Below, in pieces: positions 3,422 to 9,517 of a DNA stretch of 43,575 nucleotides. How positions within the stretch are numbered: the first letter of the stretch is position 1; each line of letters starts with the position of its first letter. The notes beneath the pieces are model-generated. The model was given only the letters and a program-made list of their open reading frames with translations. It was not told the origin of the DNA and did not search any database. The stretch comes from Gammaproteobacteria bacterium. Its GTDB lineage: Bacteria; Pseudomonadota; Gammaproteobacteria; CAIRSR01. A program made the translations under genes and the position numbers. The DNA lies in NCBI GenBank assembly GCA_963575655.1, contig CAUYTY010000155.1, positions 1-43,575 of the forward strand, read 5' to 3'.

Positions 3422-5299
3422 ATGACCGTCAGTCTTGCTCCTACCGGTGCTATTGGAACCTTCACCGGTACTGTGGAGCGTTTGAAGGGAGACCGTATCC
3501 TCGGTCGGGCTTCCTATCGAGCCTTGGCTCGGATGTTGCCCTATACCGTTGAGCGTTCACTGGATTCTGGCGCAACCCTCTACCGAGCTGGTAATCCAGC
3601 CCGAGATCTGTTCCTGTTGTTGGAAGGTGAAGTTGATTTGGTAAGTCGTTCTGGTCATCGCCTCGCCCCTTCTGAAGGGTGGATTGGGCAGGAAGCAGCG
3701 ACTGATGTCCCACATTATTTCAGCGACGCGGTAGCCCGTGGTCCGGCCCGCGTTCTGGCTATTTCCCGAGCAGGGTTGCGCGCCTTGTTGGCAGCGAACC
3801 CGGAATTGAAGGGAGAATTCTATATCTCGCTGATGGAATCGCTGGGCGGAGGATTGCTCCACGAGAAAGTGACGCATCCCACCCACTCTCTGAAGATAGC
3901 GACCGATGGTTGGTCTGCATTATTAGGCTGGTTGCTCGCTATTATTTTACCAGCTCTAATCCTGTTCTTTGGTCCTGATTGGGAATTGCCACGCAATACG
4001 GTCTATTTCCTGGCAATATTTGTAACGACGTTAGTGATGTGGGTCTTTAGTCTCACTGACGAGTATATTCCGGGGATCTTCGCGGTGCTGACGACGCTTG
4101 CCATGGAATTAGTACCGACCAATGTAGCTTTGGCTGGTCTGGCCTCGGAGGGATTCATATTAGCGATGAGCGTACTCGGTTTGGCTGCGGTAATGGTCAA
4201 CTCTGGGCTGGGTTACCGAGTATTATTGCTACTCCTTCTTAAACTTCCCGACCGACCGTTCTGGCATAATACGGGATTATTGATTACCGGTTTTCTGCTG
4301 ACCCCGCTGGTTCCCTCCATTAATGGCCGGGTGGCGCTGATTACACCCCTAATGAGGGACATGATGGAGGTGCTGCGTTGCCTTCCCAGAGGAATGAGCG
4401 CGACGGCGTTGGCAGTATCTACTTTTAGTGGGGCCAGTTTGTTGTCAGCAGTATTCTTGAGTAGTAAATCCGTCAACTTTGTGATCTTTGGACTGCTATC
4501 TCCTCAGGTTCAAGATCAATTCGATTGGATCCAGTGGACACATGCTGCAGCGGCGGTGGGTGTATTCGTGGTCATTTCCCACTTAGTGGTGGCCACCATT
4601 ATGTTTCGTGCCAATGAACATTCGAGCCTATCCAAGGAACGTATTGCCGCTCAGCTTGCCTTGTTGGGTGACCTACACCGCCGCGAGTGGGCTGCAATCT
4701 TCGGGATCTTGTTGTTTATACTTGCAGTTCTGACGACAAGCGTGCATAAGATCCAGCCCGCCTGGGCGGGACTCGCTGTCCTCTATGGTCTACTGGTATT
4801 TGGTATGCTCGGCAAGAGTGAATTTCGCAAGGAGATCGACTGGCCATTTTTAATCTACCTGGGGGGTATCGTCAGCATTACCAGTACGCTCCACTATCTT
4901 AATCTGGACAATGTCTTTGCGCAGAATTTTCTCTGGTTGGGAGATTATATGCGCGTTGATTTTGGATTGTTTCTGATGCTGTTGGCGGTGGTGGTATTCG
5001 CTATCCGCCTGGTGGTTCCGATCAGCGCCACGATTGTGATCATGGCCACGATATTGATGCCGATTGCTGAGAATGCAGGGGTCAATCCCTGGTTGGTGGG
5101 TTTCTCTACCCTGGTCCTTGGGGAAATGTGGTTTATGCCTTACCAGTGCTCCTACTATATCCAGTTACGTGAATTGACGCGTGGGGCCGAATTTTACGAC
5201 GAAAAATCCTTCCTGCGCCTTAATACTATCTCCAATTTTCTCAAGTTGGGTGCTTTGTACGCCTCGATCCCCTATTGGCAGATGCTAGGATTGCTATGA
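3422..5299 (+). CDS. cyclic-nucleotide-binding-fold / SLC13-type transporter fusion
   Basis: I place the start at ATG 3422 because GAGGAG (3406-3411) lies ten bases upstream; an in-frame TTG at 3269 would add 51 residues of unlikely sequence. Residues about 30-150 form a CRP/cNMP-binding-like beta fold (SGATLYRAGNPARDLFLLLEGEVDLV). The usual phosphate-binding cassette (GELAL...RxA) is not clear (GQEAATDVPHYFSDAVARGP), so nucleotide binding is doubtful. Residues about 165-625 are a 10-12 segment permease of the SLC13/DASS (ion transporter) type, a family that moves dicarboxylates, sulfate or related anions across the inner membrane. The soluble domain may sense a ligand and gate transport. The stop overlaps the next start by ATGA, so the two genes are probably co-translated. 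Substrate unknown. Confidence 0.8.
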   Translation: MTVSLAPTGAIGTFTGTVERLKGDRILGRASYRALARMLPYTVERSLDSGATLYRAGNPARDLFLLLEGEVDLVSRSGHRLAPSEGWIGQEAATDVPHYFSDAVARGPARVLAISRAGLRALLAANPELKGEFYISLMESLGGGLLHEKVTHPTHSLKIATDGWSALLGWLLAIILPALILFFGPDWELPRNTVYFLAIFVTTLVMWVFSLTDEYIPGIFAVLTTLAMELVPTNVALAGLASEGFILAMSVLGLAAVMVNSGLGYRVLLLLLLKLPDRPFWHNTGLLITGFLLTPLVPSINGRVALITPLMRDMMEVLRCLPRGMSATALAVSTFSGASLLSAVFLSSKSVNFVIFGLLSPQVQDQFDWIQWTHAAAAVGVFVVISHLVVATIMFRANEHSSLSKERIAAQLALLGDLHRREWAAIFGILLFILAVLTTSVHKIQPAWAGLAVLYGLLVFGMLGKSEFRKEIDWPFLIYLGGIVSITSTLHYLNLDNVFAQNFLWLGDYMRVDFGLFLMLLAVVVFAIRLVVPISATIVIMATILMPIAENAGVNPWLVGFSTLVLGEMWFMPYQCSYYIQLRELTRGAEFYDEKSFLRLNTISNFLKLGALYASIPYWQMLGLL

Positions 5300-6711
5300 G
5301 ACGGTTGCTATCAGTACCTGTCCTGGTTATTTTCTTTCTCACCGCAATGATTGTGGTTGTTGTTAATTTCAACCTCCACAAGCCGCGTTTGCTGATACTC
5401 CAAAGCTACAACCGAGATTATTCCTGGACGCGTGATGTAGATACTGGCATCCGACGTATCCTGGATAGCAAGCGTCATTATGCATTGCGTTGGTTTTATA
5501 TGGATACGAAGCGTCATCCCTGGCCAGAATACCGCAAGTCGATTGGTCAAAGTGCGCGTCGGCTGATTGATCAGTGGCAGCCGGACGTAGTAGTGGCGGT
5601 GGATGATGATGCCCAGGAATACGTGATGAAGTATTACGTTGATCATCCGCGCATTCGCATCGTCTTTGCCGGGGTGAATGGCGAGATAACACCCTATGGC
5701 TATGACCAGGCATCCAACGTTACCGGTATCCTGGAGCGTAAAGAGTTGCAAGCGGTAAAAGAGGCGCTCCTGAGCATGACCTTGCCCCGCCGGGCGGGCG
5801 CCAAACCGGGGATGCGGACAGAATCCAGCCATCGAGACCGTGCCAAAGCGGTACGGAGTGGTGAGGTGATGAGCACCGCTGAACGATCCCCCCTCTCTTG
5901 TGCGGGGGCTGGGGATTCCTGCTGGCTAAAACTCTTTCCACGCTGGCAGGCGACCGCTCAACCGGGAATAGCAGAGTTGTCGCGCAACGAAGATGCTCTG
6001 GTACGTGCCTTCGATTGGAGTCCGGTTCGGTTGGCAAAGCTTCCGCAGGCAAATATCTCCTTCCGATGGCAGGTTGCCGGGCAGGAGACATTGAGTCGTA
6101 GCGAACCGAGTGTCCCCAGTGTCCCTAATGCCCCTTCGGGACCAGCCCCTAGCCGTGTCAACCCCGCCTCTGCTTCGGTAGAGGTTCGGGTTATCCACTT
6201 GGGTGACATCTCGGAATCAGTGCGCAGCGACGAGGTCTTCATCCGTGCCTTCGATTGGAGCCCGATCCGTTTAGTGGAATCCCGCCTGGTGCAAACCTTC
6301 CCCGAGTGGCAGGCTGCGGTCGAGGGGGCAGCGAGCCGCGCGGATTTTATCCTTACCACCAATTATCGCAAACTTGCCCGGTCGGCAACGGACCGTACGC
6401 TTATCCCGCCTGCTGAAGTGGTTCATTGGACTTTGGCACACAGCCCGGTTCCGGTGTTCGGCACCAATGGTTTCTTCGTGGAAGACGGGGGGAACTTTGC
6501 CATCGGTACCTCGCCCTTTGAGCAAGGGGAGGTAGCGGCCAGGATGGCGGTAGGCATCATCGAGCGTGGGATTACCCCACGAGCTATCCCGGTGGTATCT
6601 ACTCGAGAATTCGTCGTCTTCATGCGGGGAGGTAAGATGCAGGAAGTAGGCATATACCTTCCGCGTCTTTACGAATCGTTTGCTCGAGCTACCAATAACT
6701 ACTTCGACTAG
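5296..6711 (+). CDS. membrane-anchored ABC-type substrate-binding protein with internal expansion
   Basis: Start ATG 5296 overlaps the transporter stop by four bases (ATGA). A hydrophobic N-terminus (residues 2-25) is a signal anchor or uncleaved signal peptide. Residues about 35-160 (LLILQSYNRDYSW, then QWQPDVVVAVDDDAQ, then RIVFAGVNGE) and about 295-471 (ADFILTTNYRKL, PVFGTNGFFVEDGGNFAIG) match the two lobes of the ABC_sub_bind/TrpX-like periplasmic-binding family. Between them about 130 residues look added. They include low-complexity Pro/Ser sequence (SEPSVPSVPNAPSGPAPS) and a second copy of the RAFDWSP(V/I)RL segment found at the start of lobe 2. No ABC permease or ATPase is nearby; its partner may be the transporter fusion gene upstream. 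Location (periplasmic face) is inferred. Confidence 0.7.
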   Translation: MRRLLSVPVLVIFFLTAMIVVVVNFNLHKPRLLILQSYNRDYSWTRDVDTGIRRILDSKRHYALRWFYMDTKRHPWPEYRKSIGQSARRLIDQWQPDVVVAVDDDAQEYVMKYYVDHPRIRIVFAGVNGEITPYGYDQASNVTGILERKELQAVKEALLSMTLPRRAGAKPGMRTESSHRDRAKAVRSGEVMSTAERSPLSCAGAGDSCWLKLFPRWQATAQPGIAELSRNEDALVRAFDWSPVRLAKLPQANISFRWQVAGQETLSRSEPSVPSVPNAPSGPAPSRVNPASASVEVRVIHLGDISESVRSDEVFIRAFDWSPIRLVESRLVQTFPEWQAAVEGAASRADFILTTNYRKLARSATDRTLIPPAEVVHWTLAHSPVPVFGTNGFFVEDGGNFAIGTSPFEQGEVAARMAVGIIERGITPRAIPVVSTREFVVFMRGGKMQEVGIYLPRLYESFARATNNYFD

Positions 6712-7550: not shown

Positions 7551-9296
<1,746 letters not shown>

Positions 9297-9304
9297 ACCT
9301 GGCG

Positions 9305-9517
9305 TTGACCAAGGAGTTACGCGAGTGGGTATCAGAACAGATTGGACCTATCGCTAAACCCGACGATATCCGCTACGCCGACAATCTGCCTAAGACCCGC
9401 TCCGGTAAGATTATGCGTCGTCTATTGCGTACCATCGCCGCAGGTCAAGACATCACCCAGGACACCTCCACCCTAGAGAATCCGGCCATCCTGGCTCAGC
9501 TCAAAGGCGAGGTATAA
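9305..9517 (+). pseudogene. acs: C-terminal piece of acetyl-CoA synthetase in shifted frame
   Basis: Encodes the last 70 residues of Acs: [20 protein letters not shown], then the hallmark [19 protein letters not shown], whose Lys forms part of the adenylation site and is the usual regulatory acetylation site, then the [11 protein letters not shown] tail. There is no independent ribosome-binding site or natural start, so it is not a separate gene. It belongs to the frame broken at 9285-9293. The sequence is well conserved, which suggests a recent or artefactual frameshift. Confidence 0.88.

Follow-up and report, generated by a model that had tools for sequence, protein, structure and literature searches.

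Two genes in the window, the 43,575-nucleotide stretch of gammaproteobacterial DNA analyzed here, almost certainly constitute a genuine conserved functional unit, and our favored reading, which we hold to be somewhat better than an even bet, is that they encode one binding-protein-dependent DASS secondary transporter. For this reading, we infer contact between the two products, transport, the ligand, and control through a cNMP-fold domain. The first gene (3422..5299, + strand, 625 aa) begins at ATG 3422, a start matched by relatives with the same MTVSL N-terminus, and encodes a transporter with Pfam cNMP_binding and Na_sulph_symp matches. The second (5296..6711, + strand, 471 aa; Pfam ABC_sub_bind) encodes a membrane-anchored type I binding protein of the PF04392 family. 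The two share the ATGA at 5296..5299 (+ strand, −4 spacing), in which the transporter stop overlaps the binding-protein start, and no ABC permease lies beside them in the window. An earlier note on this DNA had described precisely these features, namely a transporter carrying its own CRP-like domain, the ATGA overlap, and an ABC-type binding protein without an adjacent permease, and had suggested that the binding protein and a secondary transporter form a two-component system for uptake or sensing. Our analysis confirmed the features and supported the proposal, which survives since homologues of the two genes usually lie together and no ABC permease partner was found elsewhere in the genome. 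The observation proves far more general than the window alone could reveal.

Conservation and joint inheritance of the gene pair

Scanning GTDB genomes, one per species, with a transporter profile yielded 66 loci, and the binding-protein gene was adjacent in 62 of them. These paired loci span at least five phyla (Proteobacteria, Nitrospirae, Spirochaetes, Desulfobacterota, and Firmicutes) and include Thiotrichales, Betaproteobacteria, Alphaproteobacteria, Magnetococcales, Nitrospirae, Spirochaetes, Desulfobacterota, and Pelotomaculum. Among the exceptions, the contig of L048 ends 39 bases past the last transporter codon, L085 encodes an ordinary DASS protein (23% identity), and the genomes of L068 and L071 contain lone binding proteins elsewhere, which are strong matches with the paired-type anchor and the likely partners of the separated transporters. 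No other partner gene was constant across the pair loci.

Co-occurrence across genomes, the check that the earlier note had proposed, was examined most cleanly in 398 genomes sampled evenly across the phylum, with the binding protein counted at E at most 1e-60. The transporter was found in 16 genomes and the binding protein in 15, all within the 16; both genes were adjacent on one contig in 14 of the 16 (hypergeometric p 2.7e-26), and chance neighborhood was rejected on this basis. The other two cases lay at contig breaks: the genes of the fifteenth pair were on different contigs, and the sole partnerless transporter was near a contig end, on the partner's expected side, in a genome that is 57% complete. 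All seven transporter genomes in the class sample had an adjacent binding-protein gene. Conversely, the binding-protein profile (E 1e-15) had no match in four genomes with weak ordinary DASS matches (G014, G017, G023, and G026).

The two genes have also been inherited jointly. The exact 4-base ATGA overlap was present in 44 of 65 pairs, a count that includes a few redundant pairs and script-chosen start codons. The distance matrices of the transporters and the binding proteins correlated with r = 0.79 (maximum 0.21 in 2000 permutations), 41 of 61 tree splits were common to both proteins, and 34 of 42 well-supported transporter splits recurred in the binding-protein tree. The distribution of the pair is patchy and its tree mixes phyla, which is consistent with transfer of the pair as a unit.

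The transporter and its cNMP-fold domain

The Na_sulph_symp match covers residues 170-625 of the transporter (5.6e-27; 95.3 bits vs the curated Pfam cut-off of 27), and the DASS elevator domain occupies 3908..5296 (+ strand, residues 163-625). The protein missed the NCBIfam TIGR00785 cut-off (89.8 bits vs 198.6); judged by sequence, it is a divergent branch of the DASS/SLC13 (TC 2.A.47) superfamily outside this named subfamily. DASS includes the human SLC13 citrate transporters, and its fold is shared by TRAP. The AlphaFold2 model of the transporter (mean pLDDT 89.5) matched the DASS structures NaCT, NaDC3, VcINDY, and DiT2.1 with Z 35-39 (rmsd about 3 over 419-458 residues) and TRAP SiaQM structures with Z 21-27; Pfam DctM was below the cut-off. 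In Venteria (L071:4405-7437), the frame that contains the transporter has 1011 aa, an extended N-terminal stretch preceding the DASS domain.

The substrate region is strongly conserved. The HPin motif P298-S-I-N-G-R303 (4313..4330, + strand) ends in an arginine that is invariant in all 66 transporters and aligns with Arg159 of LaINDY, where Arg159 occupies the Na1 site and His392 lies at the Na2 site (PMC7553777). R529, located before HPout (5006..5008, + strand; 65/66), was aligned to His392 as a candidate Na2 surrogate; the columns match for LaINDY and DiT1 and are one residue off for DiT2.1, and the residue is Arg, not His. K349 in the second substrate loop (LTSKSxNF; 4466..4468, + strand) is found in 55/66, N352 in 63/66, and Q575 in 66/66. 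The Ser-Asn-Thr motif pair that classical DASS Na+-cotransporters (DASS-C) have at their substrate/Na+ sites is absent, HPin reading PSxNGR and HPout P[I/N][N/S]AT. Because R303 and, tentatively, R529 align with sodium-site positions and the Ser-Asn-Thr motifs are missing, the transporter appears to resemble the DASS exchangers more than the Na+ symporters.

The cNMP-fold domain (3554..3799, + strand, residues 45-126; Pfam cNMP_binding 3.8e-9) contains E91 (3692-3694, + strand). In the transporter model, about residues 4-144 matched HCN cyclic-nucleotide domain (CNBD) structures with Z about 17. The domain is carried by 58 of the 66 transporters; the remaining eight lack it, yet the binding protein is retained in all of these. 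None of the 58 has the canonical phosphate-binding-cassette Arg at its column, where 54 have Tyr (Y99, 3716-3718, + strand, in the window). A G-[E/Q]-E...Y signature is nonetheless common to these domains, with the second Glu present in 57/58. The earlier note had called the pocket degenerate: it is indeed non-canonical, lacking the Arg in every cNMP-bearing member, but decay was rejected given the conserved signature. Since the altered site is conserved and a cyclase gene lies near the pair in 10 loci, the domain is, on sequence grounds, specialized rather than decayed.

The membrane-anchored binding protein

The binding protein matched ABC_sub_bind with 8e-10 (38.9 bits vs a cut-off of 25.9), and its AlphaFold2 model (mean pLDDT 81.8) resembled TrpX (3lft), CD0873 (6hnj/6hni), and 3lkv with Z 22-24. 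Its N-terminal TM anchor (5314..5376, + strand, residues 7-27) stops a few residues short of the first strand and is apparently uncleaved. Paired binding proteins have a single hydrophobic N-terminal helix without a clear cleavage site, whereas a cleavable-signal-peptide appearance is commoner among unpaired relatives, as called by a simple heuristic rather than a signal-peptide program. Of 30 proteins in the unpaired set, 22 could be placed; the 30 include three lone proteins of paired type from the exception genomes.

The conserved C-terminal tail LPxxYEAFARATxNY (6661..6708, + strand) is typical of transporter-paired binding proteins: E460 is present in 63/66 and R464 in 60/66 paired proteins, and 21-24 of 27 unpaired relatives have gaps there. 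The paired-type C-lobe residues W321, Y357, W378, and D397 also differ from those of unpaired relatives, whereas the N-lobe motifs SY, W44, DDxA, and NVTGxxE, together with EQG, are common to paired and unpaired proteins. The tail would be a natural candidate for docking. An insert of ~130 residues (5782..6186, + strand, residues 163-297), mostly of low model confidence, is present in near relatives of the same family and missing from their second-copy paralogues. This insert, which the earlier note does not mention, comes with a partial internal duplication, seen as repeats at 5982-6032 and 6222-6272 (75% identical).

Proposed mechanism, neighboring genes, and alternative explanations

According to the mechanism we propose, the PF04392 protein would be held by its N-terminal helix at the outer face of the inner membrane, take up a small solute, probably an anion, between its lobes, and pass this on to the DASS elevator domain in the outward-facing state; the elevator domain would move it across the membrane without ATP. 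Exchange or Na+-independent transport seems more likely than Na+ symport because permanent basic residues appear to occupy the Na+ positions of sodium-coupled DASS proteins. The N-terminal cNMP-fold domain would be an accessory cytoplasmic control module, as eight paired transporters lack one.

Several kinds of gene recur around the pair at related loci. A class III nucleotide cyclase gene accompanies the pair in 10 loci, in nine of them as its immediate neighbor and otherwise nearby, and class III cyclase genes total just 1-18 per genome in these ten genomes. In two of the loci (L029:3908-5977 and L030:3969-5876), the cyclase gene overlaps the transporter start by ATGA, making a three-gene coupled unit; a domain check on L029 identified a dCache-HAMP class III cyclase. 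In two small alphaproteobacterial genomes (L075:3669-5846 and L076:3675-5852), the cyclase beside the pair is the sole one found, and the transporters there have no cNMP domain despite the adjoining cyclase. PF04392 fusions to cyclase, kinase, or SpoIIE outputs neighbor the pair in 8 loci, and a Peripla_BP_6-MscS fusion does so in 9 loci other than the window, with the binding part alone in two more; TAXI binding-protein genes occur close to the pair in no more than 7 loci, the window not among them. A cluster of a TAXI binding protein and a TPR protein recurs near the pair (L047, L048, L049, and L031), in part also holding GAF and pentapeptide-like proteins. The left end of the window cuts into an MscS-type channel gene (2-1429), of which the C-terminal part remains. 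This truncated gene sits 2 kb from the pair with a methyltransferase gene between them and is at most a possible member of the unit. Its product is 33% identical to residues 557-932 of L056 and possibly belongs, like the Peripla_BP_6-MscS fusions it resembles beside the pair in Desulfamplus, Agarivorans, and others, to a ligand-gated MscS channel family; no MscS-type gene was found beside the pair in near relatives.

Genes for acs, mdh, and fumarase follow the pair in the close family. In the window, the acetyl-CoA synthetase gene (7551-9514) is broken by a frameshift near 9287, its two frames matching residues 29-608 and 607-682 of a relative's protein, and is either a pseudogene or the product of a sequencing error. 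A ComA-like (phosphosulfolactate synthase) gene adjoins pairs without the cNMP domain at L073:4553-5344, L077:5133-5900, and L079:4613-5392, a possible hint of sulfonate substrates. Taken together, the metabolic neighbors are suggestive of organic acids or sulfonates; this evidence is inconsistent, and we therefore claim no substrate.

The recurrent PF04392-output fusions, Peripla_BP_6-MscS, and TAXI neighbors make a sensing role, whether or not combined with uptake, a rival to be taken seriously, and we assign it perhaps a one-in-four likelihood. The binding protein would then report its ligand to a DASS protein acting mainly as a signaling membrane partner, with transport minor or lost and output through the cNMP-fold domain or the neighboring cyclase, kinase, or SpoIIE proteins. 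Signaling genes adjoin the pair unusually often, one relative (L011:1498-4035) has a 4HB_MCP sensor domain added N-terminally ahead of the cNMP and DASS domains, and the binding-protein subfamily is common to such sensors; since sensors (kinase, cyclase, and SpoIIE fusions) are among the binding protein's closest unpaired relatives, the pair could be one as well. An exchanger-type DASS protein, moreover, gains nothing obvious from a binding protein, and we found no single-ORF fusion of the two proteins. However, the transport-domain residues are retained in nearly all 66 members, including the eight without a cNMP domain, and more than half of the loci have no signaling neighbor of the searched classes.

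That the binding protein serves another partner, such as a sensor or an orphan permease, and is merely co-expressed with a transporter of the same ligand is improbable: although the PF04392 family takes its name from ABC systems and relatives adjoin sensors, the presence and absence of the two genes match almost perfectly, no alternative partner is constant, and the anchor and tail are pair-specific. Still far less credible is service to an ABC permease encoded at another place in the genome, an idea for which the Pfam name alone speaks and which is largely refuted. Only two BPD_transp_2 permeases were found in the genome: one (on C206) adjoins its own LivK-type binding protein, and the other (on C241) is LivM-like and accompanied by ABC ATPases, and an ABC partner was rejected for this reason. 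Nor do ABC genes recur consistently at the pair loci, and the genome's only other PF04392 protein (on C195) adjoins a 1550-aa histidine kinase/GGDEF/EAL protein. For a binding-protein-dependent transporter, we count the near-absolute co-occurrence, ATGA overlap, joint inheritance, and pair-specific anchor and tail, along with the predicted DASS fold, the conserved substrate-region residues, and the precedent of TAXI-GltS.

Before 2025, binding proteins were known to work with secondary transport in TRAP and TTT transporters alone; TAXI-GltS of Bordetella pertussis was then added, with a call for further classes to test the elevator mechanism as what enables binding-protein use (PMC12344293). 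The pair described here would be close in principle to TAXI-GltS, which likewise combines, by translational coupling, a membrane-tethered binding protein with a secondary transporter that is presumably an elevator as well, and has neither a TRAP nor an ABC membrane part (PMC12344293). It differs in its components, a DASS protein and a PF04392 type I protein instead of GltS, a member of the ESS family, and a TAXI protein with a lipid anchor, and in its TM-helix anchor and cNMP-fold domain. With TRAP (DctPQM, SiaPQM), it would share binding-protein-dependent secondary transport and a membrane part of related fold, but it contains no DctQ or DctP, its transporter is closest to DASS, and TRAP of the DctP type uses a soluble binding protein and is driven by Na+. 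LaINDY and plant DiT share the fold and the HPin P-S-x-x-x-R motif, and probably basic residues at the sodium sites, whereas PMC7553777 describes no binding protein or cNMP domain for them. TrpX and CD0873, similar in fold to the binding protein, are amino-acid-binding proteins of ABC systems, to which the protein described here adds the TM anchor and C-terminal tail.

Searches of the open literature (subscription journals being outside their scope) for cNMP with DASS, SLC13 with a binding protein, and MscS with a binding domain found no description of the pair. Its conservation in very different bacteria points to a hitherto undescribed kind of ATP-free, binding-protein-assisted uptake, and the pair is a candidate further class within the DASS family itself. 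The question is directly testable, since bacteria that can be cultured carry the pair (Duganella, Herbaspirillum autotrophicum, Undibacterium nitidum, Desulfobacter vibrioformis, and Agarivorans). If the exchanger signature is right, the pair would be an unusual binding-protein-assisted exchanger.
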